Shown piece by piece: positions 3 through 59,133 of a stretch of DNA of 64,000 nt. The translations under genes and the position numbers were made by a program. The DNA comes from Methylobacter sp. (lineage in GTDB: Bacteria > Pseudomonadota > Gammaproteobacteria > Methylococcales > Methylomonadaceae). The stretch is from the NCBI RefSeq assembly GCF_030680395.1, contig NZ_JAUXVR010000006.1, forward strand, positions 186,001-250,000, written 5' to 3'. A model generated the notes under the pieces. That model was not told the DNA's origin and ran no database searches. It was given only the letters and a program-made list of their open reading frames with translations. The number at the start of each line of letters is the position of its first letter. Position 1 is the first letter of the stretch.

Positions 3-1121
3 TACAGCGTCAAAATCTTTGCCGAAATCGTCGATGCGCCCAATGTCAGCGTTGAAGAGGTGGTCAAACGCGCCTACTACTACAAACGAAACGGCGCGGA
101 TGTGATCGACATAGGCTGTCTGCCGAGCACCGATTTTCCGCACATGGAAGACATCATCCGCACCTTGAAGCAGGAAGGTTTCACCGTCAGCATCGATTCG
201 CTGGAAGCGGACGATTTGCTCAGGGGCGGCAAGGCGGGCGCCGATTACATGCTCAGCCTGCACGAAAGCACCTTGTGGGTTGCCGATGAAGTCGCCGCAA
301 CACCTATCCTGATCCCGGAAAAACATGAAGATTTGGCTTCGCTTGATAGGGCCATCAACATCATGCAGGCAAAAAACCGCGATTTTATCGTCGACCCGAT
401 TTTAGATCCGCTGCATTTTGGCTTCACACAATCCATCGTGCGTTATCATGAAGTCAGAAAGAATCATCCCGATATTGAAATGATGCTGGGAGTCGGCAAC
501 ATCACCGAACTGACCCACGCCGACACGCTGGGTATGAATGCCTTGCTGCTGGGCATCTGCTCGGAACTTAACATCAACAGTATTTTGGCAACCGAAGTCA
601 GCAAACATGCCTGCCGTGCGGTCAAAGAAGCGGATCTGGCGCGCCGCATCATGTTTGCGGCCAAAGAGCATGGCATGCTGCCCAAGCATATCGATCCGGG
701 TTTAATGGCTTTGCATGAGACTTCACCCTTTCCTTATAATTTGGAAGAAATCAAGGAACTGGCCGGGCAAATCAAAGACCCCAGTTTTCGGGTTCAAATC
801 AGTGCCGAAGGCGTGCATATTTTTAACCGTGACGGCATGCACAGCGCCACCGACCCGTTCGACCTGTTTCCAAAGCTGCATGTTGAATCCGATGGCGGCC
901 ATGCTTTTTATCTGGGCGTTGAATTGGCGCGCGCTGAAATAGCCTGGCAATTGGGCAAACGCTATACCCAGGATCAAGCATTGCAATGGGGCTGTGCAAC
1001 CGATAGCACAGAACCCACCGTTGACCTGCATACCTTTAAACCGGCCGGAACCACTTTCGCCGCGCCCGCTCCCGGCGGGCCTGCGGCATACACACCATCC
1101 CTGGCGATAAAAAAACACTAA
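3..1121 (+). CDS. DUF6513 / dihydropteroate synthase-related protein (5' end cut by window edge)
   Basis: The reading frame is open from the first bases of the window, so the N-terminus lies outside; an internal GTG at 60 is not a convincing start. The visible part contains a TIM-barrel-like segment (NGADVIDIGCLPS, then VSIDSLEADDLL) resembling pterin-binding dihydropteroate synthase domains, followed by a C-terminal half (GVHIFNRDG, LGVELARAEIAWQLGKRY) typical of the DUF6513 proteins found with tetrahydromethanopterin genes in methanogens and methylotrophs. Inferred role: biosynthesis of the H4MPT cofactor for formaldehyde oxidation; the exact reaction is not shown by sequence. It is followed by DUF447 and MfnB genes on the same strand, which supports the C1-cofactor context. 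The last 17 or so residues (ending AYTPSLAIKKH) are encoded by a palindromic repeat element and are probably not ancestral. Confidence 0.8.
   Translation, partial: YSVKIFAEIVDAPNVSVEEVVKRAYYYKRNGADVIDIGCLPSTDFPHMEDIIRTLKQEGFTVSIDSLEADDLLRGGKAGADYMLSLHESTLWVADEVAATPILIPEKHEDLASLDRAINIMQAKNRDFIVDPILDPLHFGFTQSIVRYHEVRKNHPDIEMMLGVGNITELTHADTLGMNALLLGICSELNINSILATEVSKHACRAVKEADLARRIMFAAKEHGMLPKHIDPGLMALHETSPFPYNLEEIKELAGQIKDPSFRVQISAEGVHIFNRDGMHSATDPFDLFPKLHVESDGGHAFYLGVELARAEIAWQLGKRYTQDQALQWGCATDSTEPTVDLHTFKPAGTTFAAPAPGGPAAYTPSLAIKKH
1058..1108 (+). repeat. Palindromic coding element, family 1, copy 1
   Basis: A hairpin GCCCGC-TCCCG-GCGGGC (1064-1080) is followed by the constant core ACACACCATCCCTGGCGA (ends 1107). 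It forms the 3' end of the DUF6513 gene and supplies its last residues. The same core recurs at 1855-1905 (inverted), 40007-40103 (two copies) and 58690-58791 (two copies). Confidence 0.85.
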
Positions 1122-1190
1122 TGATTACATCCTTTCATTACCCACAGGCGGAACCAACTGCTGCTAAACAGGTGATTAAAAGCTTTTTAT

Positions 1191-1253
1191 TCACCACGAA
1201 GACACGAAGACACGAAGAAATAAAACTTCGTGTTCTTCGTGTCTTCGTGGTGA
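1191..1253. repeat. Long inverted repeat of the CACGAAG type
   Basis: Arms built from iterations of CACGAAGA (left, 1191-1217) and their complement (right, 1225-1253) can form a stem of more than 25 bp with a short A/T loop, followed by a T-run. Related inverted repeats with the same outer arm TTCACCACGAA lie at 7538-7583, 50704-50842 and 62011-62082. It may end transcription between the DUF6513 and DUF447 genes. Confidence 0.8.
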
Positions 1254-1302
1254 TACTTTTTTAATCATTTTTTGATTTACCTGGTTTAATAAGAAATTAC
1301 TA

Positions 1303-1926
1303 ATGATTCAAGAAACCATCGTCATCACTCAAAACAGCTCGGGCGTGGCGCATATTGCGCCTATGGGCATACACATACCCTATGAATCGCAAGACGAATT
1401 TATCATCCTGCCGTTCCGCCCATCAACCACGCTCAATAACTTGCTGGAAAGCAAAACCGCAGTCATTAATTATTGCGATGATGTGCGGGTTTTTGCCGGC
1501 TGCCTGACCGGACGGCGCGACTGGCCGCTAAAACCGGTAGAAAAAATCAACGGTCAAGTACTCAGCTGCGCGTTGGCCCATACCGAAGTCGAACTGGTTC
1601 GCGTTGAAGACGACGAGACCCGGCCCAAGTTATTCTGCAAAGCCGTACACACCGCCAATCATGCGCCCTTTAAAGGCTTTAACCGCGCCCAATATTCGGT
1701 GCTCGAAGCGGCGATTTTAATCAGCCGGTTAAACATGATTCCGCTGGAAAAAATACAAGCCGAAATCGACTATCTGCGCATCGGCCTGGAGAAAACAGCC
1801 GGAGACCGGGAACTGGAAGCCTGGGGTTGGTTGATGACCGTCATTGAAAACTTTATCGCCAAGGATGGTGTGTATGCCGAGAACCTGCCGGGAGCAGGTT
1901 CGGCAAAAGCCGGGATCAACTCATGA
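1303..1926 (+). CDS. DUF447 family protein, C1-cofactor linked
   Basis: A 207-residue protein beginning MIQETIVITQNSSGVAHIAP. The N-terminal half looks like the FMN-binding split-barrel fold of DUF447 proteins: a short beta-rich start, PMGIHIPY, then IILPFRPSTT and a conserved VFAGCLTGRRDWP. DUF447 members are found in methanogens and in methylotrophs that use tetrahydromethanopterin; biochemical function is not established. It overlaps the following mfnB gene by 4 bp (ATGA), indicating translational coupling. The last ~22 residues (IAKDGVYAENLPGAGSAKAG and beyond) are encoded by an inverted copy of the palindromic repeat, so the native C-terminus was probably shorter. Confidence 0.8.
   Translation: MIQETIVITQNSSGVAHIAPMGIHIPYESQDEFIILPFRPSTTLNNLLESKTAVINYCDDVRVFAGCLTGRRDWPLKPVEKINGQVLSCALAHTEVELVRVEDDETRPKLFCKAVHTANHAPFKGFNRAQYSVLEAAILISRLNMIPLEKIQAEIDYLRIGLEKTAGDRELEAWGWLMTVIENFIAKDGVYAENLPGAGSAKAGINS
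1855..1905 (-). repeat. Palindromic coding element, family 1, copy 2 (inverted)
   Basis: In minus orientation the element has the stem AACCTGC-TCCCG-GCAGGTT (complement of 1882-1900) and the core at 1855-1878, with one change in the core (CCTTGGCG for CCCTGGCG). It is read in the antisense direction by the DUF447 gene as IAKDGVYAENLPGAGSA without a stop codon. Confidence 0.85.
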
Positions 1927-2978
1927 CCGGAATGCTTGCCAGCGTTAACAGCGTAGAAGAAGCCTTGCAGGCGTTGACTGCGAATGTCGATATTATCGAC
2001 CTGAAACAACCGGCTTTAGGCGCTTTGGGCGCGCTGGAAATTGATCTTGTCAAAAACATTGTTAATGCAATTGGCGGCCGTTGTCCCGTCAGCGCAACCG
2101 TTGGCGACCTGCCCATGGAGCCGGAGATTGTTTACTCGGCAGTTAAAGCCATGGCCGAAACCGGCGTCGATTATATAAAAATCGGCTTTTTTCCCGGTGG
2201 CGACTGGCAAGGAACCCTAGAAAAATTAGCCGCCTTGGCACAACAAAATCTTGCCTTGATTGCGGTATTATTTGCCGATACCCCCCCTGATTTTGCCGTC
2301 ATAGATTTACTAAAAAATGCCGGTTTCGAAGGTGTAATGCTCGACACCATGAACAAAAGTAACGGCTCCTTGACTCAGGTCATGACAAAGACCGATATAG
2401 CGCAATTTGTCAGGCTGGCAAAAGATCGCTCTATGCTCTGCGGACTGGCCGGTTCGCTCAGACTGGACGACATAGACGAACTGATGCCTTATCAGCCTGA
2501 TTACCTGGGCTTTAGAGGCGCATTATGTCTGGATCACAACAGAACAGCGCAATTGAGTAAGTCATCAATTATGCGGATAAAACAGGCTATAGAACACCAT
2601 CAGAACCTGCTCCAGTCAGAAAATGCTGAAAACCGCATTTTGATTGCCGATGACAGCGAAATAAATCGATTGATACTGGCCAACATGCTTGAACTGAACG
2701 GCTACACCGTTGACGCAGCCGTTGACGGTGCGGAAGCCCTGCAATTCATCAGCAAAAATCACTATAAATTCGCGCTTATCGATCTCAGCATGCCGGTCAT
2801 GTCGGGACTGGAGATGGTGAGAATCCTGAGAAAACAGCATAACCCCTTAAAAACTGCCGCTATCAGCACTTTTGCTGTCGACAATCAAAAAACCGGAGCG
2901 CTGGATGCCGGATTTGATTACTGCTTAACCCGACCGGTTGATGAAGAACAATTGATGGCGCTGCTAAATCTGCATTAG
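1923..2978 (+). CDS. mfnB: (5-formylfuran-3-yl)methyl phosphate synthase fused to a response-regulator receiver domain
   Basis: Residues 1-230 match MfnB (formerly DUF556), which condenses two glyceraldehyde-3-phosphates to the furan precursor of methanofuran/methylofuran. Residues corresponding to the known catalytic set are present: K28 (IIDLKQP), K86 (DYIKIGFF), D141 and K145 (LDTMNK). After a linker, residues ~239-351 form a CheY-like receiver domain: acidic pair D243-D244 (IADDSEIN), phosphoacceptor D287 (ALIDLSMPVMSG), S315/T316, but the conserved lysine before proline is arginine (R337 in TRPVD). The stop is followed by a terminator, so this closes the operon. MfnB proteins are usually single-domain of about 235 residues; the fusion is the odd feature. 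Phosphorylation control of furan-cofactor synthesis is inference only. Confidence 0.88.
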   Translation: MTGMLASVNSVEEALQALTANVDIIDLKQPALGALGALEIDLVKNIVNAIGGRCPVSATVGDLPMEPEIVYSAVKAMAETGVDYIKIGFFPGGDWQGTLEKLAALAQQNLALIAVLFADTPPDFAVIDLLKNAGFEGVMLDTMNKSNGSLTQVMTKTDIAQFVRLAKDRSMLCGLAGSLRLDDIDELMPYQPDYLGFRGALCLDHNRTAQLSKSSIMRIKQAIEHHQNLLQSENAENRILIADDSEINRLILANMLELNGYTVDAAVDGAEALQFISKNHYKFALIDLSMPVMSGLEMVRILRKQHNPLKTAAISTFAVDNQKTGALDAGFDYCLTRPVDEEQLMALLNLH

Positions 2979-3039
2979 ACGATATTTAACTTCGTTTTCA
3001 CTCAAAATACCGCCAACTCCCCTTATCGCTCAAAGCTAT

Positions 3040-3088
3040 GCAAACCAAAAACCCTTACTCGAACTCTCCGGATAAGGGTTTAGTTTGC
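3040..3088. terminator. Hairpin terminator between convergent genes
   Basis: Nested stem GCAAAC/GTTTGC (3040-3045, 3083-3088) and AACCCTTA/TAAGGGTT (3050-3057, 3073-3080), with T-rich sequence after it, between mfnB (+) and the small periplasmic protein gene (-). Probably bidirectional. Confidence 0.6.
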
Positions 3089-3133
3089 AGATTCTTTTAA
3101 AGTGGATGGCCTGACGGCGCATCCACCTTTTGC

Positions 3134-3511
3134 TTAGTGATTAGACGCGTAGAGCTGTTTTATTTCTTTATACCGGTTTAAAGCATCCGTTAAGGACTCT
3201 TTAGCCGATTGCGGCTCATTGCTCTGAAGAGCCGAACGCGCTTGCTTTAACACGTTGCTGGCTTGATTGCGTTTCAGGTCAAGTACGTTATTGGCAATAT
3301 CTTTTTGCAATTGACGGGCATCGGTAACCAGGTCTATGACCGCTTCGTTGTTCGCGCCATTGTCCAGCGCCGTCTTGGCCTCTTCCACTTTCGCCAGCGT
3401 ATTGTCGATAGCTGCTTTAACGTCTTCATACGACGGATTCGCTATCGCAAAAGCGCTTGATGTCATTGCAGCCATAACAACAGTAGCCAGGATTTTTTTG
3501 AATGTGTTCAT
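3134..3511 (-). CDS. Small helical periplasmic protein, unknown function
   Basis: A 125-residue protein with a clear Sec signal peptide (MNTFKKILATVVMAAMTSSA, cleavage near AFA-IA). The mature part is predicted helical, rich in Ala, Asn, Gln and Lys/Asp, with heptad-like spacing and no cysteine. I do not recognise a named family; the general shape (about 100 residues, all-helical, exported) resembles cytochrome-b562-like or small metal-binding helical-bundle proteins, but the His/Met clusters those need are not obvious. It is a single gene, flanked by a terminator on one side and a long intergenic stretch on the other. Confidence 0.7.
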   Translation of the reverse strand: MNTFKKILATVVMAAMTSSAFAIANPSYEDVKAAIDNTLAKVEEAKTALDNGANNEAVIDLVTDARQLQKDIANNVLDLKRNQASNVLKQARSALQSNEPQSAKESLTDALNRYKEIKQLYASNH

Positions 3512-4039
3512 GGGGTAAACCTCGTAGTTGATAAATAAAGTATTTCTACGTAACGATTAATGAGCTTTGGGGTAAGAAAGATTCAAGTTCATCGCTAGGT
3601 ATGGGTATAGTCTAGCAGGACTTTGTCCTGATTAGTACTATTATTTGTTCTAATGAGAACTATTTTTTTACCGCCATGCTTTTTACGAAAAAAGCCCTAC
3701 CCGTACTTGTAAAAACAAGTGTTATTTATCAAGGTATTATTTCTATATTGCTGCAAGATTGCTTGGCTATTACTTCCGCTCGACGAAGCCTCATGGTCGG
3801 CAAGTCTTACCGAAACCACCCAAAATCACCCCATGTATGAACCAATAGCGTTGTTATTTGTTAAAGCCTGTGGGGCTGATGTGTAGCCGTTCATTCGTTG
3901 ACGGCCATTTCCGACGATTGATCGGAGCGTTGGCAATATTCCAATAACGCAGCAAGCGTTTTTAATCATTAAAAATCTTGAGGTTAATTTTAGTTAGGGT
4001 TATCATCTGGTACTAATTAAAACAATTACCATCAAAAAT
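3512..4039. other. Intergenic region between the periplasmic protein and MarR genes
   Basis: About 530 bases, divergent promoters expected on both sides. Apart from a likely promoter for the MarR gene (3978-4006) no gene or strong repeat is visible. Confidence 0.5.
3978..4006 (+). promoter_or_regulatory. Sigma-70-like promoter of the MarR gene
   Basis: TTGAGG and TATCAT separated by 17 bases, about 35 bases before the start codon. Just downstream, an imperfect dyad (GGTACTAATT ... AATTACC, ~4009-4031) overlaps the expected transcript start and could be an autoregulatory MarR site; this is inference. Confidence 0.45.
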
Positions 4040-4516
4040 ATGAATTCCACTTCAACCTTTCCAACGGTACTGCGCGAACTATTAAGAACACATCAAGCTT
4101 TTTTGGCCTATGCGGCGAGTCATGTTCACACGCTAGATCTGACGCTGCCGCAATACGATATTATTATCACCTTAGGCGACACGCCCGGCATGACCTTCAA
4201 GAAGCTGGGCGAGAAGACATTAATTACCAAAGGAACCTTAACCGGCGTAATTAGCCGTCTGGAGGATAAAGGACTGGTGCAACGGGTGGCTTCGGAAACG
4301 GACGGCCGCAGTCAGATTGTGCAGCTGACAGCGGCGGGTGAGGATGTGTACAAACGTACTTTTCCCGAGCATCTGGTATTCATTAACCGGATATTTGATG
4401 ATTATTCCCCGGAGGATATAGTCAACCTTGGAGACACTCTGCGGCGGTTACACGATGCTGTAACCGCATTGCGTAGCAGCGGGAGCGGAACGCCCACTGA
4501 TGAAACCGCTGAATAG
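4040..4516 (+). CDS. MarR family transcriptional regulator
   Basis: 158 residues, the usual MarR length. The winged helix-turn-helix spans roughly residues 30-100: LTLPQYDIIITLGDTPGMTF, then the recognition helix segment LITKGTLTGVISRLEDKGLV and the wing with the conserved DGRSQIVQLTAAG (DxRxxxxxLT). Members bind palindromes as dimers and are released by phenolic or oxidant ligands. It is convergent with the nitroreductase-pirin-DoxX operon, so it may control that stress operon or itself; target not shown. Confidence 0.88.
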   Translation: MNSTSTFPTVLRELLRTHQAFLAYAASHVHTLDLTLPQYDIIITLGDTPGMTFKKLGEKTLITKGTLTGVISRLEDKGLVQRVASETDGRSQIVQLTAAGEDVYKRTFPEHLVFINRIFDDYSPEDIVNLGDTLRRLHDAVTALRSSGSGTPTDETAE

Positions 4517-4534
4517 ACCGGGATCATCAACCCA

Positions 4535-5143
4535 TCATTCAATTCCCCTGCCCCATTGACCTGCATAAAACTGTTCAATCAATGCGGCGCGGGAACGTGC
4601 GCCTAATTCAGCTTCCTTAAAATCGTCGTCAAGCACACCCACATCAGTTTGATAGCCGACGGCCATCATTGCCATCGGCTTGCAATCGCCCGGAAGATTA
4701 AAAACCTCGCGGGCTTTTTCGGCATCAAAGCCGCCCATTTGATGCACGATCAATCCCATTGCAGTCGCCTGCAAGCATAAGCTGAGGCTGGCGGCGCCGG
4801 TGTCATACATCGACCAGCGATTAGGCTGGCCGTTATGACTGAAATTATCCATAGCGACGGCCAATATCAGAACAGGCGCGTTCTTGGCCCAGCGCCTGTT
4901 TTTTTCAGCCAGTGTTGCAAACGCATGTTGCCAGCCGGTTTCATCGGTGGCTCTATCGCAGACCACATAACGCCACGGCTGGCCGTTAAAACAGGACGGC
5001 GCCCAGCGCGCAGCTTCCAGCAGCGCCAGCAAATCATCATGACTCACCGGCTTGCCAGGATCAAACGCTCTCGGGCTCCAACGATTCTGGATAATATCGT
5101 GAAGTTTTACTCGGGTTGGTGCCGGTTTTTGCTGCATATTCAC
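4535..5143 (-). CDS. Nitroreductase family protein
   Basis: 202 residues with the FMN-dependent nitroreductase fold: N-terminal NRWSPRAFDPGKPVS (RRS-type FMN-binding segment), APSCFNGQPWRYVVC (the conserved APSxxNxQPW motif), and a C-terminal MMAVGYQTD. Such enzymes reduce nitroaromatics or quinones with NAD(P)H as cytoplasmic dimers. It is the last gene of a three-gene minus-strand operon DoxX-pirin-nitroreductase (29-bp gap to pirin), a combination commonly seen in electrophile or quinone stress responses. Ends 18 bp from the convergent MarR gene. Confidence 0.87.
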   Translation of the reverse strand: MNMQQKPAPTRVKLHDIIQNRWSPRAFDPGKPVSHDDLLALLEAARWAPSCFNGQPWRYVVCDRATDETGWQHAFATLAEKNRRWAKNAPVLILAVAMDNFSHNGQPNRWSMYDTGAASLSLCLQATAMGLIVHQMGGFDAEKAREVFNLPGDCKPMAMMAVGYQTDVGVLDDDFKEAELGARSRAALIEQFYAGQWGRGIE

Positions 5144-5172
5144 ATCCTTTATTTGATTAGATAAAAACTTAT

Positions 5173-6033
5173 TTACAGCGTCAACACGCCGTCACGGTAA
5201 TCACGAAACGCCTGTTCAATTTCTTCGCTGCTGTTCATCACAAACGGGCCGGACTGCACAACCGGCTCGTTCAACGGCAGCGCGGCTAATACCAGAAATT
5301 GCGCCGACCGGTCTTGCGTTGCCAGTTGTATGTTCTCGCCGTTAATTAACTGCCCCAGCTGCCCGGCTATTAATAGCCGGTCCGATGCGCCGACAGCCAG
5401 CTCGCCTTTGTAAACATAGACCAAAACCGTATGCTGTGCAGCTACCGGTATATCGAGCTGTTGCTGCGGGCTTAACAATACATCGAAATACAACGGCTGT
5501 GTCGTTACGCCTGTTACCGGGCCGGATATTTTTTGGGTTTCGGTCGCATATTCACCGGCGATAACCTTGATGTAGCCGCCATTAGGCAATGCAACGCGAG
5601 GGATTTTTTCGGCGGCAAATTCCTGATAATGCGGCGCTTTCATTTTTTCTTTAGCGGGCAGGTTAATCCATAACTGAAAGCCGTGTAACAAACCATTTTC
5701 CTGTTCCGGCATTTCCGAATGAATAATGCCGTGTGCGGCGGTCATCCATTGCACATCGCCCGCCCGCAAATGCCCTTCATTACCCAGATGATCGCGGTGC
5801 AACATGGCGCCTTCCAGCATATAGGTCACGGTTTCAAAACCGCGATGCGGATGATCGGGAAAACCGCCGATGTAATCGACCGCTTCATCCGAGCCAAACT
5901 CATCCAATAAAATAAAAGGATCGAAGCTGTTTTTTTGCCGCTGACTGACAACACGTTTCAGTTTAACACCAGCCCCATCCGAAGTATTTTGCCCGCTTAT
6001 TACAGCCGCAAGTTGACGTGCTTGCTTATTCAT
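5173..6033 (-). CDS. Pirin family protein (cupin)
   Basis: 286 residues, standard pirin length. The N-terminal cupin has the metal-ligand signature HPHRGFETVTYMLEG followed by HRDHLG and MTAAHGIIHSEMP; the C-terminal half is the second, degenerate cupin with LVYVYKGEL. Bacterial pirins include quercetin-2,3-dioxygenases and regulators of pyruvate metabolism; substrate here unknown. The gene overlaps DoxX by 8 bp, so the two are translationally coupled. Confidence 0.9.
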   Translation of the reverse strand: MNKQARQLAAVISGQNTSDGAGVKLKRVVSQRQKNSFDPFILLDEFGSDEAVDYIGGFPDHPHRGFETVTYMLEGAMLHRDHLGNEGHLRAGDVQWMTAAHGIIHSEMPEQENGLLHGFQLWINLPAKEKMKAPHYQEFAAEKIPRVALPNGGYIKVIAGEYATETQKISGPVTGVTTQPLYFDVLLSPQQQLDIPVAAQHTVLVYVYKGELAVGASDRLLIAGQLGQLINGENIQLATQDRSAQFLVLAALPLNEPVVQSGPFVMNSSEEIEQAFRDYRDGVLTL

Positions 6034-6484
6034 CTTTACTCTCCAATAGTTTTGTCTCGATCAGAGCATCAAGCGAGTACTGCCCACCGCCGATAACTAT
6101 CAGTGCCGTGGTTGCCGATAATAAAGCCAGCGCATATTCAATACCATGCGTATCCAGAAAAAAGCCGTGTCCCCAATGCACCCAAAACAATGCAACCAGC
6201 ATTGTTATCGCATTAATCATCGCCGCCGGACGCGTCAGCAAGCCCAGAATCAACGCGACACCGCCAAAAAACTCAGCGCTGCCCGCCAATAACGCCATCG
6301 CAAATCCCGGATTCAAACCTACCGATGCCATCCATTGCCCGGTTCCGTCCAATCCGTAACCGCCAAACCAGGCGAATAATTTTTGGCTGCCATGCGCCGC
6401 CAGGATTAAACCGATAGGAACGCGCAGTATGACGGCTTCCAAACCCGCGTCGGAAACCAGTGTTTTATTAATTAAGTTTTTCAT
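6026..6484 (-). CDS. DoxX family membrane protein
   Basis: 152 residues with four predicted membrane segments (LRVPIGLILAAHGSQKLFAW; FAMALLAGSAEFFGGVALIL; AAMINAITMLVALFWVHW; ALALLSATTALIVIG). The motif AHGSQKLFAWFGG at the end of helix 1 is typical of DoxX/YphA proteins linked to thiosulfate:quinone or oxidative stress functions. First gene of the operon with pirin and nitroreductase, transcribed away from a LysR regulator whose intergenic region carries two palindromes. Confidence 0.9.
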   Translation of the reverse strand: MKNLINKTLVSDAGLEAVILRVPIGLILAAHGSQKLFAWFGGYGLDGTGQWMASVGLNPGFAMALLAGSAEFFGGVALILGLLTRPAAMINAITMLVALFWVHWGHGFFLDTHGIEYALALLSATTALIVIGGGQYSLDALIETKLLESKDE

Positions 6485-6509
6485 AATGACCTCATAAATG
6501 TTTAATAAA

Positions 6510-6590
6510 TTGAAACTTCAAGTTCATTATAGGTTTGCCTTAAAGAATAAAAAGCGATAGATTTTGCTTAATAGGTTCAAAATATTTGAA
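6510..6590. promoter_or_regulatory. Two candidate LysR operators in the doxX-lysR intergenic region
   Basis: Two dyads sit between the divergent genes: TTGAAACTTCAA (6510-6521) and TTCAAAATATTTGAA (6576-6590). The second contains T-N11-A (TCAAAATATTTGA), the classical LysR-type binding core, 21 bases before the lysR start, and shares the TTGAA/TTCAA half-site with the first. This layout fits a LysR protein that activates the DoxX operon and represses itself. Confidence 0.55.
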
Positions 6591-6611
6591 CAATAAACAT
6601 AAACAGAAAAC

Positions 6612-7505: not shown

Positions 7506-7537
7506 ACAGTCGATCAAAAGTCTCTTAATATTTTTAC

Positions 7538-7583
7538 TCACCACGAACGGCTGCATGAACGGATCTTCATGCCTTCGTGGTGA
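7538..7583. repeat. Inverted repeat of the CACGAA type between convergent genes
   Basis: Arms CTCACCACGAACGG and the partly complementary GCCTTCGTGGTGAA close a hairpin with a short internal ATGAA/TTCAT pair. It is followed by AT-rich sequence and lies between lysR (+) and the emrA-like gene (-), so it may serve as a shared terminator. Confidence 0.6.
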
Positions 7584-7592
7584 ATTAATTAA

Positions 7593-8789: not shown

Positions 8790-8795
8790 CGTTGC

Positions 8796-38053: not shown

Positions 38054-40111
38054 ATGTTTAACGAAACAAATTCAGAGATAAATACCGGTAATATTTCGAG
38101 CTCATCGAATACCGTTAATAACTATGCATTTGATCTCAATCGAGCCATCAGCAAAGCACAGGATAAATTATTAAGCCTGCAGGACAAAGACGGCTATTGG
38201 GTATTCGAACTCGAAGCAGACTGCTCGATCCCGTCAGAATACATCATGATGATGCACTACCTGGGGGAAATTGATGAGCCGCTACAGGCCAAAATCGCTA
38301 ATTACTTAAGATCTCGTCAATCTGAAGACGGCAGCTACCCATTATTTACCGGCGGTGCGGGCGATCTTAGTTGCAGCGTTAAAGTCTATTTTGCCTTGAA
38401 AATGACCGGAGATGCTATCGACGCACCGCACATGACCCGGTTAAGAAATTACATCCTCAGCCGGGGCGGCGCGGCAAAAGCCAACGTGTTTACACGCATT
38501 GCACTGGCAACCTTTGAGCAGTTACCCTGGCGCGGCGTACCGTATATTCCTGTCGAAATCATGCTGTTTCCCAGCTGGTTTCCGTTCCATTTGGACAAAG
38601 TATCGTACTGGTCAAGAACCGTTATGGTGCCGCTGTTTATTCTTTGCACCTTAAAGGCGACGGCAAAGAATCCTAACAACATCAACATACTGGAACTTTT
38701 CGTCACTCATCCTGATGAAGAAAAACACTATTTCCCTGAAAGAACCACTTTAAATAGAATCTTTCTGGGCCTGGATAAACTGGGCCGGGTAACACGTCCG
38801 TTAATTCCGAAAAAAGCGCACAGATTGGCTGTCGAAAAAGCCAAAGACTGGTTTGTTGAACGACTGAACGGCGAAGACGGCCTGGGCGGAATTTTTCCTG
38901 CAATGGTCGGTTCTTATGAAGCCATGCTATTACTGGGCATGCCCAAAGATCATCCGCATGTCGTCACCGCACGTAAAGCCATAGACAAGTTGCTGGTTAT
39001 CAATGAACATGACGCCTACTGTCAACCCTGTTTGTCCCCGGTCTGGGATACAGCGCTTGCCGCGCTGGCTTTACAAGAAGCCGACAAAACCGGTAATAGC
39101 CAAAGCCTGACTCGCGCCTACGACTGGCTTAAAAGCAAACAACTATCAGATGAGCCTGGTGACTGGCGAATTTCCAAGCCTGACTTAGAAGGTGGCGGCT
39201 GGGCATTTCAATTTGAAAATCCGCATTATCCCGATGTCGACGACACGGCGGTTGTTGCCTTTGCGATGGCGGAATCGAACGTACCCAATCTGGATGAATC
39301 GATACATCGGGCAACCCGTTGGATAGTCGGTATGCAATCTAAAAACGGCGGTTACGGTGCGTTTGATGTCGATAATACTAACTACTACTTGAATGAAATT
39401 CCTTTTGCCGATCACGGGGCGTTATTAGACCCGCCTACTTCCGATGTCAGCGCGCGTTGCGCGATGCTGATGGCCAGAGTGGCTCAAGATCATGCCGAAT
39501 ACTTACCTGCGTTAGAGCGCACTATCGACTACATTCGTAGTGAGCAGGAACAAGACGGCTCATGGTTTGGCCGTTGGGGAACCAACTACATCTATGGTAC
39601 TTGGTCGGTATTACTTGGACTGGAGCAAACCAGCCTGCCTAAAAACGACCCGCTTTACACCAAAGCCGCTCACTGGCTAAAAAGCGTACAACGTGGCGAT
39701 GGCGGCTGGGGTGAAGACAATTACAGCTATCACGATTTAAGCCAGAGCGGAAAATATCGTTTCAGTACTGCATTCCAAACAGCCTGGGCCGTGTTGGCGC
39801 TGATGGCTGCGGGCGAGGCTCACAGCCACGAAGTAAAAGCAGGTATTGATTTCATCCTGCGTAACCAGAAAGCTGACGGCGTTTGGAATGACGAATGCTT
39901 TACCGCACCCGGTTTTCCGAAAGTTTTTTACCTTAAATATCACGGCTACGACAAGTTCTTCCCGCTATGGGCCTTGGCTCGATATCGTAATGAACTTAAC
40001 CGCCACACCGATTCCCGTCTGGCTAGCGGCATGCACACCATCCCTGGCGATCGTCACGCCAGTTCCGGACTGGCTTGTGACATACACACCATCCCTGGCG
40101 ATAAAAATTGA
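38054..40111 (+). CDS. shc: Squalene-hopene cyclase
   Basis: 685 residues, longer than the usual ~630-660. The catalytic acid motif is DVDDTA (D394-A399), with QW repeats such as DGSWFGRWGTNYIYG, RGDGGWGED and NQKADGVWND, and a two-barrel all-helical fold expected on the inner membrane. Forms hopene/diplopterol from squalene. The normal C-terminus is near LWALARYRNEL; beyond it ~30 residues (HTIPGDRHASSGLACDIHTI and on) are encoded by two tandem copies of the palindromic repeat. GGACG upstream is a plausible ribosome site. Overlaps the hpnG start. Confidence 0.96.
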   Translation: MFNETNSEINTGNISSSSNTVNNYAFDLNRAISKAQDKLLSLQDKDGYWVFELEADCSIPSEYIMMMHYLGEIDEPLQAKIANYLRSRQSEDGSYPLFTGGAGDLSCSVKVYFALKMTGDAIDAPHMTRLRNYILSRGGAAKANVFTRIALATFEQLPWRGVPYIPVEIMLFPSWFPFHLDKVSYWSRTVMVPLFILCTLKATAKNPNNINILELFVTHPDEEKHYFPERTTLNRIFLGLDKLGRVTRPLIPKKAHRLAVEKAKDWFVERLNGEDGLGGIFPAMVGSYEAMLLLGMPKDHPHVVTARKAIDKLLVINEHDAYCQPCLSPVWDTALAALALQEADKTGNSQSLTRAYDWLKSKQLSDEPGDWRISKPDLEGGGWAFQFENPHYPDVDDTAVVAFAMAESNVPNLDESIHRATRWIVGMQSKNGGYGAFDVDNTNYYLNEIPFADHGALLDPPTSDVSARCAMLMARVAQDHAEYLPALERTIDYIRSEQEQDGSWFGRWGTNYIYGTWSVLLGLEQTSLPKNDPLYTKAAHWLKSVQRGDGGWGEDNYSYHDLSQSGKYRFSTAFQTAWAVLALMAAGEAHSHEVKAGIDFILRNQKADGVWNDECFTAPGFPKVFYLKYHGYDKFFPLWALARYRNELNRHTDSRLASGMHTIPGDRHASSGLACDIHTIPGDKN
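40007..40103 (+). repeat. Palindromic coding element, family 1, copies 3 and 4 in tandem
   Basis: Copy 3 (~40002-40051) has the core at 40030-40051 but a decayed stem. Copy 4 (~40052-40103) has a perfect stem GCCAGT-TCCGG-ACTGGC (40058-40074), different in sequence from the stems elsewhere, and the core ending 40102. They encode the shc C-terminal tail in a third reading frame (HTIPGD) and run to within 5 bases of the hpnG start codon. Confidence 0.85.
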
Positions 40112-49919: not shown

Positions 49920-49921
49920 TT

Positions 49922-50686: not shown

Positions 50687-50703
50687 CCGAAATCATAAAG
50701 ATG

Positions 50704-50842
50704 CACCACGAACAACTGCATGGATGCAGAAGGTAGAGCACCAACAGTAGGCGCTTTAGGCGACGCAGGAGCGGTTGCCGAGGCACGAAGAACACGAAGC
50801 TTATATTTTTCCTTCGTGCTCTTCGTGCCTTCGTGGTGAATT
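50704..50842. repeat. Long CACGAAG-type inverted repeat between gloB and lysS
   Basis: Right half GAGGCACGAAGAACACGAAG / CTTCGTGCTCTTCGTGCCTTC forms a strong stem; the left half carries CACCACGAAC, complementary to the far end. Convergent genes on either side suggest use as a terminator. Confidence 0.7.
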
Positions 50843-50852
50843 AATCAGTTCA

Positions 50853-52352: not shown

Positions 52353-52384
52353 TTTATTTGTTAACTCTTTAGTTTTAATAATTT

Positions 52385-53483
52385 TTATAAGCCACTCTTC
52401 AAGCTGGCTTCAATAAACTGATCCAGATCGCCATCCAGAACCGCTTGGGTGTTGCCTGTTTCTACATTGGTGCGCAAATCCTTAATCCGCGACTGATCCA
52501 ACACATAGGAACGAATCTGGCTGCCCCAGCCTATATCCGACTTGGTATCTTCCAGTGCCTGAGCCGTTTCACTACGCTTGCGCATTTCCAGCTCGTACAA
52601 TTTGGCTTTCAATTGCTTCATCGCGGTATCGCGGTTCTTATGCTGCGAACGGTCGCTCTGGCATTGCACGACAATTCCGGTCGGGTTGTGGGTCATACGC
52701 ACGGCCGACTCGGTTTTGTTGATATGCTGACCACCCGCGCCGCTGGCTCGGTAAACATCGACCCGTATATCGGCGGGATTGATGTCTATGTCTATATCGT
52801 CGTCAATTTCCGGCGATACGAACACCGACGCAAACGAGGTATGGCGGCGATTGCCCGAATCGAACGGCGATTTTCTGACCAAGCGATGTACGCCGGTTTC
52901 GGTGCGCAGCCAGCCGAACGCATATTCGCCTTCAAATTTGATCGTGGCGCTTTTGATCCCGGCCACGTCGCCTTGCGACTCTTCAATCAACTCGGTTTTA
53001 AAGCCTTTACGCTCGCCCCAGCGCAAGTACATGCGCTCGATGATCGATGCCCAATCCTGAGCCTCGGTGCCGCCGGAGCCTGACTGTATATCCAAAAAGG
53101 CATTATTGGCATCCATTTGCCCGGAGAACATGCGTCGAAATTCCAGATCTGCGACTCTTTTTTCAAAGTGCGCCAGATCATCGACGACGGTTTCAACCGT
53201 TTCTTCATCATCTTCTTCGACCGCCATCAGCAGCAGTTCTTCCGCATCGGCAAGGCCGCGTTCCAGATCATTAATGGTGTTAACGATGACTTCCAGCTGG
53301 CCGCGCTCTTTACCCAAGGCCTGCGCTTCTTCAGGCTTATCCCAGATTTTCGGGTTTTCCAGCTCTCTTAAAACTTCGACTAAACGTTCGCTCTTGACGT
53401 CGAAGTCAAAGATACCTCCTAAGGGCATCGCCACGGCTTTTTAAGTCAGCTATTTTGTTTTTGATCGGATTTATTTCTTGCAT
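52385..53483 (-). CDS. prfB: Peptide chain release factor 2 with programmed +1 frameshift
   Basis: Two frames: codons 1-25 from ATG 53483 ([20 protein letters not shown]...) end at an in-frame UGA (53406-53408); the remaining 340 codons, from GAC 53407-53405 to the stop at 52385, lie in the +1 frame. Joined length is 365 residues, identical to E. coli RF2. The shift site reads AGGAGGTATCTTTGAC: internal Shine-Dalgarno AGGAGG, then CUU UGA C. RF2 recognises UGA, so low RF2 favours the shift (autoregulation). Domain marks: codon-reading SPF (VRKSPFDSG) and the peptidyl-tRNA GGQ ([13 protein letters not shown]). A naive start at 53434 would miss the N-terminus. Confidence 0.95.
53405..53420 (-). 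promoter_or_regulatory. RF2 recoding site
   Basis: AGGAGGTATCTTTGAC on the minus strand: SD-like AGGAGG, three-base spacer, slippery CTT and stop TGA followed by C, the canonical arrangement for +1 frameshifting in prfB. Confidence 0.93.
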
Positions 53484-53628
53484 GGGGTGTATTTAACCAA
53501 TGACAGTCGAGACCTAACGCAGGTAAAGCGCCGGTCGATGAAAACTTTAAACAACGGGTGATTATAAACTATAAGCGGGAAGCTGTTCATCCCAAGTTGC
53601 CGGCTTAAGACCATTGGGACAGCAACTT

Positions 53629-54369
53629 TTAGCTATCACTCGACTGAAAACTGATCTCCATTCCCAATGTCAGGCCCAGTTGCTGTTGTGCATGGCCTTT
53701 ATTGACCGCAATTTCGACCAGACCGCTGGAATTTTTATACCAGAAAGCCTGTTGTTCTTCGACATCGCCGAAAGTATCGGCCTGTTTAATCGCAATACCG
53801 TGAATATTTAAAATCTTGCCTGCTAATTTTTCGTGATACCGCAAGCCGGTCATTGCATTGCCGTAATAATCGAAATAGATCACTGCCTCCAAGTCTTGAG
53901 GCCAATCGCTTAAATCATTTCGGTCAAAGGGTTGCAATAAATCACCGGCTGAATTGATGGCCAGCCTTGCGGCAACGGGGGCGAATATATCCCTGCCGTG
54001 AAAGCTCATTGAGCAATGTTCAGACTTCCAGATAATTTCCGACCATTGCGTATCTTGAGCCTGAACGGCGACAGTATTCAACAAGCCGTTATCCGGCCCG
54101 ACAAACCTTTGTCCGTCAGCTTGTAAAACAACGGCTCTGCGCTCACCGCCAACGCCTGGATCAACCACGGCCAGAAAAATACCGTTTACAGGAAAGCTGT
54201 ACCGCAATGCGGCCAATAAATAGGAACTTAAACGGGGATTAGCTGTCGGGGCGTTACTCAGCAGATTAATAACAGGGACATTGGGCGCTGCAAGCCGCAA
54301 CACCGATTCCATTTGCCCGATGTAAGGACCTGACGGCCCAAAATCGGTAAAAAGAACGATGCTTGTCAT
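53629..54369 (-). CDS. SAM hydroxide adenosyltransferase (DUF62 / chlorinase-fluorinase family)
   Basis: 246 residues. Motifs of the family: IVLFTDFGPSGPYIGQMESV, FLAVVDPGVGGERRAVVLQA, FVGPDNGLL and the Asp/Arg/His set (SFHGRDIFAPVAARLA). Members without halogen-binding residues hydrolyse S-adenosylmethionine to adenosine and methionine; halogenation is not implied. Last gene of fabA-fabB-ttcA-this unit, 6 bp after ttcA. Confidence 0.9.
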   Translation of the reverse strand: MTSIVLFTDFGPSGPYIGQMESVLRLAAPNVPVINLLSNAPTANPRLSSYLLAALRYSFPVNGIFLAVVDPGVGGERRAVVLQADGQRFVGPDNGLLNTVAVQAQDTQWSEIIWKSEHCSMSFHGRDIFAPVAARLAINSAGDLLQPFDRNDLSDWPQDLEAVIYFDYYGNAMTGLRYHEKLAGKILNIHGIAIKQADTFGDVEEQQAFWYKNSSGLVEIAVNKGHAQQQLGLTLGMEISFQSSDS

Positions 54370-54375
54370 CGCCTG

Positions 54376-55230
54376 TTATTGCGCCAACACATCCAAACCG
54401 GCATTAAATGTCATAACCTGCTCTTCGGCTTGTTGACTCCGCATTAATCCGGCAAAATCGAATAACTGCGTATCGGCCAACTGCGAAGGCGCGACATTTT
54501 TCAAGCTGGTAAAAATGGTTTCCAAGCGGCCCGGAAACTGTTTATCCCATGTTTTTAACATGACTTTCATGGCTTGGCGCTGCAGATTTTCCTGGGAACC
54601 GCACAAGTTGCACGGAATAATCGGGTAATTTTTAAATACGGCCAAGCGCTCTATGTCTTTTTCACGGGTGTACGCTAAGGGTCTGATGATAATATTTTTC
54701 TTATCGTCGCTTAACAACTTGGGCGGCATGGCTTTTAATTTACCCCCGTAAAAAATATTCAGGAAAAAGGTTTCAAGAATATCGTCGCGATGATGGCCCA
54801 AGGCTATTTTGGTAACATTATTGGCTTCGGCATAACCGTATAAAGTACCGCGCCGCAAACGCGAACACAATCCGCAAGTGGTGTTGCCTTCCGGAATAAC
54901 CCGCTTTACCACGCTGTAGGTATCTTTTTCGATAATATGGTATGGCACATCCAACGATGCCAGATACTCCGGCAAGACATGTTCTGGAAAGCCGGGTTGC
55001 TTCTGATCCAGATTGACCGCGATCAGTTCAAACTCAACCGGTGCGGTTTTTTGCAAGTGCATCAGGATGTCCAGCAGGGTGAAGGAATCCTTGCCGCCGG
55101 ATAAGCACACCATGACCTTGTCGCCGTTTTCGATCATGTTGTAGTCGGCAATCGCATCGCCGACCGTGTGCCGCAAATGTTTTTGTAGTTTGTTAAACTG
55201 GATTCTGGATTTTTGGTTTGGATCTGACAT
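54376..55230 (-). CDS. ttcA: tRNA 2-thiocytidine synthetase
   Basis: 284 residues. PP-loop [15 protein letters not shown], the CxxC pair [18 protein letters not shown] and a second [14 protein letters not shown], which bind a [4Fe-4S] cluster. Thiolates C32 of several tRNAs with ATP. Family length and order are standard. Confidence 0.95.
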
Positions 55231-55302
55231 GGTCAGAGATATGAAGTATTTGAGAGAAAAGAAATGCGGGGTTCGTATGTCCGAACCCCGATGAGAATCG
55301 CG

Positions 55303-56526
55303 TTAGCCGTTGTAACGCTGAAAGATCAGTGTAGCGTTGGTGCCGCCGAAGCCGAAGCTGTTCGACATAATGGTGTTTAACGTAATGTTGTCTTTACGTT
55401 CACGCACGATGGGAATACCTTCCGCCCCCGGATCAAGCTGGGCGATATTGGCTGAAGCGCTGAGGAAGTTTTCTTCCATCATTAGCAACGAATAAATCGC
55501 CTCATTAACACCCGCCGCGCCCAGTGCGTGACCTGTCAGCGATTTTGTGGAACTGACTAACGGCACCTTATCCTGACCGAACACGTTGCGCAAGGCTTCA
55601 AGTTCTTTGGTATCGCCGACCGGCGTACTGGTGCCGTGAGCATTGATATAATCGATTTTGCTGCTGCCGATCGTCGCCATCGCTTGCTGCATGCAACGCA
55701 CTGCGCCTTCACCGGATGGTTGAACCATATCGTAACCGTCGGAAGTTGCGCCGTAACCGGTCAGTTCTGCGTAGATTTTCGCACCGCGCGCTTTGGCATG
55801 TTCCAGTTCTTCAATGACTAAAACACCGCCGCCGCCGGAGATAACAAAACCGTCACGGGTTTCATCATAAGGCCTTGATGCTGTGGTCGGCGCATCATTG
55901 TATTTTGAAGACAAAGCGCCCATCGCATCGAACAACATCGACATCGTCCAATGCACTTCTTCGCCGCCACCGGCAAATACGACATCCTGTTTGCCCATCT
56001 GGATCAATTCCATCGCATGACCGATACAGTGAGCACTGGTCGCACACGCCGAGCTTATCGTGTAATTAACGCCTTTAATTTTATAAGGTGTCGCAAGACA
56101 TGCGGTATTGGTGCTGGACATGCTTCTGGGTACCATATAAGGACCCACTTTTTTGATGCCTTTTTCGCGTAAAATGTCAGCCGCTTCAACAATATTTGAG
56201 GTTGAAGGACCGCCGGAACCCATCACCAGTCCGGTTCTGAAATTCGAAACTTCTGATTCACCCAGACCGGAATCATCAATGGCCTGTTGCATCGCAATAT
56301 AGTTAAATGCAGCGCCATCACCCATAAAGCGTTTTATTTTACGGTCGATGAATGCGTCTAAATCTATATTGATAGGCCCGTGGATATGACTGCGGAAACC
56401 CATTTCTTTATAAACGTCTGCAAAAGCGATTCCTGAACGGCCTTCCTTTAGGGAATCGACAACCTCTGTTCGATTATTTCCTATGCTGGAAACAATACCT
56501 AACCCGGTAACTACGACTCTTTTCAT
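55303..56526 (-). CDS. fabB: 3-oxoacyl-ACP synthase I
   Basis: 407 residues. Thiolase-fold condensing enzyme with Cys in [14 protein letters not shown], the two histidines in [15 protein letters not shown] and [12 protein letters not shown], and the C-terminal [15 protein letters not shown]. Elongates unsaturated acyl-ACP after FabA; together they make cis-vaccenate-type fatty acids. Follows fabA by 11 bp, the usual fabAB pair. Confidence 0.96.
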
Positions 56527-56537
56527 TGTTAACGCCT

Positions 56538-57053
56538 CTAAAAATCTTCTGTCGAAGTGAATAAACCAACCCGTAAATCGGTAGCCTCATAAATCACTTT
56601 ACCATCGACTTCCATGGTGGCATCAGCGATACCCATAACCAGCTTCCGCATTATTACTCTTTTTAAATTGACCCGATAAATCACTTTCTTGGCAGTGGGC
56701 AGCACTTGTCCGGTAAATTTGACTTCACCCACACCCAAAGCGCGACCTTTGCCGGGACCGCCCATCCAGCACAAAAAGAAGCCGACCAACTGCCACATCG
56801 CGTCCAGTCCCAAACAACCGGGCATCACAGGATCGCCCTGAAAATGGCAGTCAAAAAACCATAAATCAGGCGTTATATCCAGCTCAGCAATGATCTCGCC
56901 CTTTCCGTAGGTACCGCCTTCATCCGTAATAAGGGTAATACGATCCATCATTAACATATTCGGTAGAGGCAATTGCGCATTTTTCGGCCCATACAGTTCA
57001 CCCCTGCCGGACTTCAACAATTCTTCGCGCGTAAAACTGTGCTGTTTCCCCAT
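56538..57053 (-). CDS. fabA: 3-hydroxydecanoyl-ACP dehydratase/isomerase
   Basis: 171 residues, hot-dog fold. Catalytic His-70-type segment [20 protein letters not shown], with the second acid in the same motif (GLD). Introduces the cis double bond at C10 for unsaturated fatty acids. First gene of the minus-strand lipid operon. Confidence 0.96.
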
Positions 57054-57135
57054 ACTCTTTATATACCTTAACGTAATTATTATTATTATAAACTGTGCAT
57101 TATCTAACAGACACCAAAAAAAATCAGCTCAAATT

Positions 57136-59133
57136 TTAGCCGGGCAATACATCAAGCATCAATTCTTTCATCTTCAAGCCCTCTCTTTGTATGAGTTGCT
57201 GATAAATAATGGCGTAAGAAAGCACCGAAGTTACATACTTTCTGGTTTCTTTAAATGGGATGGTTTCTATCCAGATATCTGCAGGCATGGACGTAACATT
57301 CGGCAACCATTTTGCTACCCGTCCGGATCCCGCATTATAAGCGGCAATTGCCAAGGCAAAGTGCCCATGAAACTGTTTTAGCAGTTGTTTATAATAAAAA
57401 GCGCCGTACCGGACATTAACATCAGGATTAAACAGACTGTTGTCCGACTGCCATTTTTCCTTCAAATCGCGGGCTATCTGCATCCCTGTTCGGGGCATAA
57501 CCTGCATTAAGCCGCGCGCACCAACGGATGACTCGGCATTTTTATTGAAGATGCTTTCCTGCCGGATCAGACCAAAAACAATGGCCGGATCAAGATCCTG
57601 CAAATGGGCATTATTATGCACCTGATTCGAATAATAAATAGGGAATCGCAACCCCAGATCATCCCAATAATCGGCTTTAACCAATGTAGTAATGGCAATT
57701 TGATCTTTGTGCCATTGCTGAGCCAATTTGGCAGCGATCATGCGCCGCTCCTTACTCAGTTTTTTTACCGCATACCACCATTGCCGTTCGGCCTCCGCGT
57801 CCCTGTTCAGTAAATTAAGCTCCCGAACCACTTTAAAATCGGTTTCATTGGCCAAGCTTTCGAGTTCATTTTCCGCCAGAAAAACCGGTTTATTGGAAAA
57901 CTGATAAGGCTTATGAACATTATCGGCGGCCAGGAACCCGTAAAAGCTCCGGTCTTCGGCAAGTTTAGTGTAGACATCCTGCGCCTGCAAAGAGTTTCCG
58001 GTTTTATCCAGCGACCTGGCCAGCCAGTATTGCCATTTAGGCTCCTGCCGTTCCTGAGCCGTCAAACCCGCCAGCGCCTCGGCAACATGCTGCCAGTTTT
58101 GTTCAAGCAAAGCCGCCCTGACTTTCCATTCATTGATTTCCGCATCAACAACCGGCAATTGATTAAGTCGGTAATACGCACCTGGGTTTCGACTGTGCGC
58201 CAAGCCCATCGCGAGCTTGCGCTCCAGTTGCTGGGCAGCCTGATTATCTATCCGGAAAGCGTGTTTTTTATCATCCCAAAGTTGAATGGCCCTATTCAAA
58301 TCAGATTTTGCCAATCGTCCTATGCCATGAGCGAAAAGCCTCCCCATTTGCGGACTCAAAAAGCCGTTATTTTCGATCAGAGTCGGCTGTTGATGAATCC
58401 GCAACCATACATCGGCAACATCCTGATCTTCGCTGCTCATCGAACGGCGCACGTATTCGGCCACCGATACATTATCTTTGCTCAAAGCAAGCTCAAATCG
58501 CTGCCAAATAAGTTCCGGCGTAAAGCCGGGCGACATCATTAATACCGACAATAGCGGATCGCATTCCTGCGGTAGCGAATCTCCGGTCACCCATAGTTGT
58601 TTGGCTGCATTTAATGCCTGCTGCTGATTGCCTGTTTTATAGATTGCCAGATTGTACTGGCATTCAAGAGGCGTATTTTCGGTTGCTCTCGCCGCGCCTG
58701 TTCCCGGCAGGTTTGCGGCATACACACCATCCCTGGCGATCGCCGAACCTGCTCCCGGCAGGTTTACGGCATACACACCATCCCTGGCGATATAATGCTG
58801 GAGAAAATCGTTCCAGCGCTCATTTTTAGCCAGGTAATCCAGCCATTTTGTTCTCAATAATCCGGCATAACGGGTCGATTTATAGGCCGCTAAAAAAGAC
58901 AGAACTTGATCGGTTTGCTGTAAATTATCTTTCAGCCACTGGTATTGCAAATAAGGATATAAAGGGTAATCGATCAAAGCAGCACTGGTGTACATAAATG
59001 CCGCATTATTGCCTTGAGCAAGCAATTTTTCCGCCAGCAAAAAATCATTTCTTTGCTGGTCGAGCGTATTGCAAAGTACTACATCGGAAAAAAGAAGCGG
59101 ATACAACAACACAATCCACGCCAGACATTTCAT
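57136..59133 (-). CDS. slt: Soluble lytic murein transglycosylase with in-frame repeat insertion
   Basis: 665 residues: signal peptide (WIVLLYPLLFSDVVLC), an all-helical U-shaped domain (residues ~25-480) and a C-terminal SLT catalytic domain (IVFGLIRQESIFNKNAESSV, with catalytic Glu in RQES; GARGLMQVMPRTG; AIAAYNAGSGRVAKWLP). Cleaves peptidoglycan to 1,6-anhydro muropeptides in the periplasm. Residues ~115-148 (IARDGVYAVNLPGAGSAIAR and on) are two tandem palindromic-repeat copies placed in the superhelical domain between an N-terminal HYIA-type turn and TPLECQYNLAIYKTG. The frame is kept, so the enzyme may still be made. Confidence 0.93.
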   Translation of the reverse strand: MKCLAWIVLLYPLLFSDVVLCNTLDQQRNDFLLAEKLLAQGNNAAFMYTSAALIDYPLYPYLQYQWLKDNLQQTDQVLSFLAAYKSTRYAGLLRTKWLDYLAKNERWNDFLQHYIARDGVYAVNLPGAGSAIARDGVYAANLPGTGAARATENTPLECQYNLAIYKTGNQQQALNAAKQLWVTGDSLPQECDPLLSVLMMSPGFTPELIWQRFELALSKDNVSVAEYVRRSMSSEDQDVADVWLRIHQQPTLIENNGFLSPQMGRLFAHGIGRLAKSDLNRAIQLWDDKKHAFRIDNQAAQQLERKLAMGLAHSRNPGAYYRLNQLPVVDAEINEWKVRAALLEQNWQHVAEALAGLTAQERQEPKWQYWLARSLDKTGNSLQAQDVYTKLAEDRSFYGFLAADNVHKPYQFSNKPVFLAENELESLANETDFKVVRELNLLNRDAEAERQWWYAVKKLSKERRMIAAKLAQQWHKDQIAITTLVKADYWDDLGLRFPIYYSNQVHNNAHLQDLDPAIVFGLIRQESIFNKNAESSVGARGLMQVMPRTGMQIARDLKEKWQSDNSLFNPDVNVRYGAFYYKQLLKQFHGHFALAIAAYNAGSGRVAKWLPNVTSMPADIWIETIPFKETRKYVTSVLSYAIIYQQLIQREGLKMKELMLDVLPG
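58690..58791 (-). repeat. Palindromic coding element, family 1, copies 5 and 6 in tandem, inside slt
   Basis: Copy 5 (58690-58740) has the stem CCTGT-TCCCG-GCAGG with one wobble pair; copy 6 (58741-58791) has AACCTGC-TCCCG-GCAGGTT. Both end in the same core (58717-58740 and 58768-58791). They add 34 residues to the Slt protein without a stop in either strand's used frame. Confidence 0.87.

Follow-up and report, generated by a model that had tools for sequence, protein, structure and literature searches.

Previous studies described the Rickettsia palindromic elements (RPE) as small palindromic repeats that lie in frame within protein genes, including those of conserved enzymes, and whose peptide is translated (PMC2229807, PMC10969869, PMC1950309). 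RPEs are 105–146 bp long, carry a 12-bp terminal inverted repeat (PMC2229807) and belong to Rickettsia, with nearly half of the first set lying in genes; that a similar mechanism acts in other prokaryotes is called merely conceivable in the relevant passage of a 2024 review (PMC10969869). Among other short repeats, repetitive extragenic palindromes (REPs) are short dispersed hairpins, some inside genes and most intergenic (PMC3733652), and miniature inverted-repeat transposable elements (MITEs), of about 100–200 bp, mostly have terminal inverted repeats and target duplications and are sometimes fused in frame (PMC2229807). Here we followed up an earlier note that had reported a palindromic repeat of about 50 bp within genes of a 64,000-nucleotide stretch of Methylobacter sp. 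DNA (contig NZ_JAUXVR010000006.1, positions 186,001 to 250,000; the whole stretch is called the window). The repeat is very probably a 51-bp non-autonomous mobile element of Methylobacter that is inserted precisely at C-NNN^A-[A/T] (^, insertion point), is read through as 17 codons and is selfish.

Rickettsia is the best-known case of in-frame palindromic insertion, which is met here at scale in a free-living lineage. A free-living bacterium appears to have proteins lengthened by selfish DNA, the insert seemingly being read as 17 extra amino acids. With filled and empty sites over 23 genomes, a length and a target that are both exact, and a frame filter that can be measured, the movement of such elements, the tolerance of proteins and the seeding of new loops become directly testable in cultured methanotrophs. 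A search of the open-licence literature found no paper describing this core.

Anatomy of the element

The core ACACACCATCCCTGGCGA matched the window six times at up to three mismatches, as compared to a mean of 0.01 expected from shuffled sequence, which bears out the six copies at four loci of the earlier note. Each copy is exactly 51 bp long, starts with CGCC, TGCC or CGTC and ends with GGCGAT. The unit consists of CGCC, a bulged hairpin of 12 pairs around a TCC(C) loop, and the 21-nt tail ATACACACCATCCCTGGCGAT; the two ends, CGCC and GGCGAT, have only four complementary bases in common.

Copy 1 (1058..1108, plus strand) forms the C-terminal tail of the open reading frame (ORF) at 60-1121, which is open from position 3; Pfam gives this ORF PterinBD-DUF4346 alone, slightly under the cut-off, and leaves its former name, DUF6513, unconfirmed. 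Copy 2 (1855..1905, minus strand) lies antisense near the C-terminus of the DUF447 ORF at 1303-1926, where it is read IAKDGVYAENLPGAGSA. Copies 3 (40001..40051, plus) and 4 (40052..40102, plus) are a tandem pair at the C-terminus of the squalene-hopene cyclase (shc) ORF at 38054-40111, and copies 5 (58690..58740, plus) and 6 (58741..58791, plus) a tandem pair inside the SLT-domain gene (slt; minus strand, ORF 57136-59133), with 0 bases between the copies at both loci. The range 40002-40103 reported previously was one base off, the correct one being 40001-40102; all six copies do lie inside an open frame. Rfam gave no match in the window at the gathering threshold and only rRNA in five other loci at E up to 0.1.

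Insertion sites and target

To compare filled with empty sites, as the earlier note had suggested, the joined flanks of 16 of the 18 prepared single sites of the same genome were searched in the genus, and 40 matches of about unchanged span, falling on 13 sites, were fetched (loci and genomes are cited by L and G numbers). Once the 51 bp were removed, 34 of these 40 empty orthologues had a net length of 0, and no target duplication was seen at the compared sites. At the tandem sites in slt and shc, 102 bp were absent in five clean empty orthologues each, a count that leaves out the reversed misaligned loci L199, L205, L207 and L226; L245, at shc, differs near the junction. Orthologues lacking the insert thus differ by a net 51 bp at single and 102 bp at tandem sites. 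For the single copies of the window, L382 and L416 are empty at the site of copy 1, and the orthologues without the element at the site of copy 2 have a net length of 0 (L385) or -6 (L402 and L417).

These comparisons bear on the explanation that the segments are ancestral to their host proteins and were lost in other lineages. Several species do share some sites: among filled sites located via their flanks, the pheS-pheT spacer (genes identified by Pfam) is common to ten genomes and valS to two. Against this, one 51-bp sequence occurs in unrelated genes, in both orientations and in several frames, the element is missing from the orthologues of 13 sites, and the insert in EPSP synthase (aroA) is a clean 17-residue gap relative to the solved AroA sequence 5buf. 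Ancestry is refuted for the sites examined, and we give it next to no chance as the origin of the segments. Neither a segment ancestral in distant genera nor stem changes that fail to pair, the two findings that the earlier note had named as contrary to its proposal, turned up in those sites.

We assembled 83 independent sites, five of them of the type found in G032, which belongs to a different genus within the family, and scored the target on the 78 without an upstream remnant. The target reads C(-4)NNN^A(+1)[A/T](+2), with C in 59, A in 69 and A/T in 67 of the 78 sites. The right end of the element, CGAT^A, matches this target, as the last four bases, CGAT, together with the A of the target recreate the site. 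Since each insertion rebuilds its target, the copies form head-to-tail 51-bp arrays: we counted 190 single copies, 29 doubles, 5 triples and 3 arrays of four, not deduplicated by site. Remnants with a net length of 30 bp, seen at two in-gene sites (L430, L440, L451), still contain the hairpin part but not the 21-bp tail; tail loss may be a route of decay of the element.

Host genes and reading frame

Genes were called with a simple codon-score caller on native sequence from which the element had been removed. A count of coding versus intergenic copies, also suggested in the earlier note, placed 70 of the 83 independent sites in native ORFs (33 sense, 37 antisense), and five of the 13 sites outside ORFs are of the G032 type. 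The same loci are 86% coding, and 1430 of 1660 control CNNNAW sites fell inside ORFs; as these fractions are about equal, insertion neither clearly avoids nor prefers genes. The view that copies lie in coding DNA therefore stands for all six copies of the window, whereas genome-wide some copies are non-coding and the share in genes is about that of the background. Pfam matched 19 of 20 host proteins scanned, including RapA, ValRS, RNase R, EPSP synthase, a cation ATPase, LeuRS (insert near the N-terminus), an M3 peptidase, a SufB/D core protein, UDP-GlcNAc epimerase, CobW, a SpoU methylase, Competence (ComEC-type) and T2SSE. The insert in the SufD-like protein is a 15-residue gap, and the insert region of ValRS (valS) aligns loosely. 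Three Methylobacter genomes (L017, L120, L142) have an insertion in RapA, each at a different place.

Three kinds of observation concern translation. The first is that only one of 120 internal copies (L018) has a stop in the host frame, versus a mean of 13.4 for each other frame, these copies not being independent. The second is a frame bias at 66 independent in-gene sites, which amount to 18/3/11 over the sense frames against a CNNNAW expectation of 14.0/11.6/6.4 (p=0.004) and to 30/0/4 over the antisense frames against 17.7/4.3/12.0 (p=0.0001); the bias persists when internal sites alone are counted (p=0.03 sense, p=0.0006 antisense), and of the six possible frames three are rarer than expected. 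The sense frame that is rare ends in a TAA stop when AA follows, which accounts for its rarity. The consensus peptides are LSPGMVCMPQACREQARR and YRQGWCVCRKPVGNRRGG in the rare antisense frames, IARDGVYAASLSGTGAA in the favoured antisense frame, and RRACSRQACGIHTIPGDK and AAPVPDRLAAYTPSLAI in the favoured sense frames. The third concerns length: net lengths other than 0 or 51 among in-gene orthologues were multiples of three in 14 of 15 cases (e.g., 54 in valS, 36, 30, 18, 6, -6), the exception being one in-gene orthologue of net -1 at L337. For the pheS-pheT spacer and one 5' site, this was true of 1 of 16 (52, 11, -2, 46, 41 and others). The 5' site is the plus-strand site of L326, where the caller put the element 39 nt inside an ORF and which, given an ATG right after the element, was counted as 5' of the gene; without it, the non-genic multiples of three are 0 of 9.

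From the rarity of host-frame stops, the biased frame and the lengths in multiples of three, we infer that the 17-residue insert is translated and that copies are filtered according to what they do to the host protein. A rival explanation is that the insert never reaches the protein, being cut from the RNA or skipped by the ribosome, as in the bypass elements of yeast mitochondria. It would easily explain small hairpin elements within conserved enzymes; however, stops are about 13 times rarer in the host frame than in other frames, the frame is biased, and length changes in genes are mostly multiples of three, none of which is expected without translation. Removal or bypass is most improbable. 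A further property, 47 of 69 independent-site copies without a stop in any frame versus 6.4% of pairing-preserving shuffles, was not used as proof, because all copies share one consensus and the six-frame openness amounts to about a single observation (p about 0.06).

Covariation in the hairpin

The earlier note had also proposed paired changes in the stem. In 24 copies aligned over 12 pairs, 90.3% of cells were paired as compared to 80.4% in shuffles, and changes on both sides affected 8 pairs versus 4.1 and 34 cells versus 11.9; structures slid along the same copies paired in just 22-42%. One of five measures, the number of further pair types, was not above shuffles (17 versus 15.9; 174/500). 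At 69 independent sites (the 78 sites not of the G032 type minus nine with an unrecognisable loop), 92.6% of cells paired versus 81.9% in shuffles, with 94 both-side changes versus 26. Compensatory change is confirmed in both sets.

We then compared copies at orthologous sites. The 91 pairs held 81 cells that had changed on both sides and remained paired, 139 broken cells and 39 with one-sided changes, and the paired changes among them suggest that pairing is kept after insertion. The same 81 cells favour an alternative, in which template-switch correction of imperfect palindromes at replication forks, rather than selection on a mobile hairpin, makes the paired stem changes. The 139 broken cells and 39 one-sided changes of the same pairs speak against such correction, and the copy at one site could also be replaced through tandem insertion and loss; we consider template switching a possible but rather unlikely source. 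The paired differences at orthologous sites could come from selection at mobilisation, from turnover that replaces one tandem copy by another, or from correction by template switching. The earlier statement that the folded hairpin is under selection is upheld as to the pairing, but these data do not tell selection during mobilisation from repair of palindromes by template switching. The covarying hairpin and the conserved tail, the latter conservation being partly an effect of how loci were found, suggest that a folded strand is recognised.

Proposed mechanism and search for a mobilising enzyme

The comparisons show that the element inserts precisely at C-NNN^A-[A/T] without duplicating the target, and the target recreated at its end can admit further copies in tandem. 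Being 17 codons long and mostly free of stops, it leaves the host gene open, and the translated peptide would be screened by its effect on the host protein. A putative enzyme acting in trans would recognise the hairpin and the tail, and this recognition would preserve pairing in the stem even as the letters change. For most hosts, the element would be near-neutral, and it would be selfish. The empty sites, the translated-looking frame and the covarying hairpin support the earlier proposal of a mobile palindromic element entering coding sequence in frame.

Candidate enzymes were sought in the 23 genomes of the genus. Genes for Y1_Tnp (PF01797) were present in 23 of 23, with 141 matches; 30 of these 141 loci were fetched and searched for copies of the element, which gave three weak hits, the best at 15.8 bits (L273). 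Neither candidate is a likely mobiliser: Y1_Tnp was unlinked in the 30 of 141 loci searched and uncorrelated with copy number, and the IS91-type Y2_Tnp (PF04986) is in only 8 of 23 genomes and does not follow copy number. In the genome of the window, the hairpin precedes the tail in all 21 tail matches and no autonomous parent was found; eight weak or partial hits, each viewed over about 100-160 bases, were truncated or diverged copies.

Several points weigh against the reading of a selfish, translated element. The mobilising enzyme was not found among the Y1_Tnp and Y2_Tnp candidates in the 23 genomes. Genomes with more Y1_Tnp matches do not have correspondingly more copies of the element (Spearman 0.28, p=0.20), and G011 has 85 element matches with one Y1 match, in a 123-aa ORF that looks truncated. 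Replication-strand bias was absent, with 9 leading, 9 lagging and 2 unclear copies among 20 of the 37 matches of G019, a small sample of 18 scorable copies whose strand was assigned from local GC skew. Some of the 83 sites, which were collected by a regular expression (L094 plus strand, one in L184, L232 and probably L316), resemble chance matches without a hairpin. The conservation of the tail is overstated, since an exact tail pattern had served to find 80 loci and others were top scorers. The favoured sense frame can encode two Cys, so peptide quality or amino-acid content is not the full explanation of the frame bias. Finally, the copies in the stop count and the orthologues in the length comparison share ancestry and are not independent.

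In the rival reading that makes use of these candidates, the repeat is of the REP type and is mobilised by a REP-associated Y1 transposase (RAYT) or an IS200/IS605 transposase; it would be a common palindrome-associated element whose presence in genes is incidental. IS200/IS605 insertion is not known to duplicate its target, adjoins a short fixed target and is biased in orientation toward the lagging strand. The hairpin near one end, the bulged stem, the fixed flanking bases, the lack of target duplication and the Y1_Tnp genes in every genome of the genus fit this rival. On the other hand, the foot of the hairpin carries no GTAG or CGTC tag, the 30 fetched Y1 loci held no good copy, the Y1 count is not followed by copy number, the absence of strand bias in 18 scorable copies speaks against a lagging-strand route like that of IS200/IS605, and there is no intergenic bias, unlike in REPs as described (PMC3733652). 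We judge this rival unlikely.

Comparison with described repeats

As with RPE, a palindromic repeat sits in frame within conserved protein genes, and the in-frame invasion bears out RPE as the closest parallel, as stated in the earlier note; size, lineage and ends differ. The element is 51 bp long, lacks a long terminal repeat, forms exact 51-bp arrays, lives in free-living gammaproteobacteria and has a defined target without duplication, with 70 of 83 sites in genes; it is set apart from RPE by description, not by sequence. Like REPs, it is a short dispersed hairpin with some copies in genes; unlike the GTAG and CGTC superfamilies of REPs, it has no tag at the hairpin foot (from the alignment of copies, 69 sites), no intergenic bias, head-to-tail rather than opposed pairs, and no linked RAYT in the 30 loci searched. 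It shares with bacterial MITEs (Correia/NEMIS, ERIC, RUP) its shortness and its non-autonomous nature, whereas neither terminal inverted repeats nor target duplication were seen. With IS200/IS605-derived elements it shares a short fixed target and the lack of target duplication, but not the lagging-strand bias (18 scorable copies, strand from GC skew). Given that the size and terminal repeat of RPE and the tag and location of REPs do not apply, we assign it to a kind, in-frame mobile palindromic repeat, and not to a named family.

Distribution and related families

The core and a covariance model were used to search the genome of the window and other Methylococcales, as had been suggested. In the genome of the window, a 16-base piece of the tail occurred at no more than one mismatch in 21 places, with 0 for the reversed control, and the covariance model of 24 copies gave 62 matches at E up to 1; 43 of them scored at least 31 bits and 33 at least 49 bits. 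The weak end of this list includes sister families, e.g., one with ...GGCATTTCCTCCATCCATGGAGGTCA. Of these, one has the tail ATTTCCTCCATCCATGGAGG or a close form and is found among L317, L320, L323, L463 and L466, L317 and L320 then sharing GATCAGGAGGTAGAGC; a second reads GTCGCA...TTGCGACACTTCCGCCATCCATGGCAGTCG or close (L464, L465, L467).

Matches were present in 29 of 61 related genomes, namely 23 of 23 Methylobacter genomes (3 to 85 matches each), 6 of 14 from other genera of the family and 0 of 24 from elsewhere in the order. The exact tail was found in at least 114 stretches, and the 80 listed are Methylobacter, Methylovulum, Methyloglobulus, Methylococcaceae or Methylococcales records. 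Viral contigs had no exact match to a 24-base degenerate tail pattern, and a 111-base query gave no match in phage records.

A class-wide gammaproteobacterial sample had matches in 19 of 274 genomes and 17 of 222 genera; when the genus of the window and that of G032 are left out, there are 15 genera, which lie outside the family. Thirteen loci from these 15 genera matched again at 27.7 to 59.6 bits, the relatives being mostly weak, and at these loci the hairpin is followed by a second small palindrome (CTCCATCCATGGAG, GCCATCCATGGC, TCACCGTCCATGGTGA). This corrects the earlier note: elements related to the 51-bp unit exist outside Methylococcales, and we infer that these gammaproteobacterial relatives make up one superfamily. 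More tentatively, and with the odds somewhat against the full statement, the Methylobacter element may belong, as one branch, to a superfamily of hairpin elements of codon length in gammaproteobacteria (a hairpin plus a CCATCCnTGG second palindrome) that are moved by an enzyme not described so far, renew their own attachment site, are adapted to coding sequence and would be a standing source of 17-residue insertions in essential proteins.

In another gammaproteobacterium (L473), hairpin repeats spaced 51 bp lie inside the isoleucyl-tRNA synthetase (ileS) ORF; 38 residues separate two stretches that match a solved homologue, where the distance between them is 2 residues, and the entry point has a protein motif, ITMD, similar to the last part of the repeat unit. 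G032 (L077, L284-L312) has 57 matches, typically GCAGATTTTTGCTCC(AT)GCAAAATCTGC plus ATTCACGCCATCCTTGGCG, many with longer flanks in common; the five independent sites scored are all outside called genes, and one locus, L287, holds 23S and 5S rRNA. In the window itself, the stretch that separates the DUF447 ORF from the ORF with its end at 1121 contains a large inverted repeat at 1190-1254 (TTCACCACGAAGACACGAAG ... CTTCGTGTCTTCGTGGTGA).

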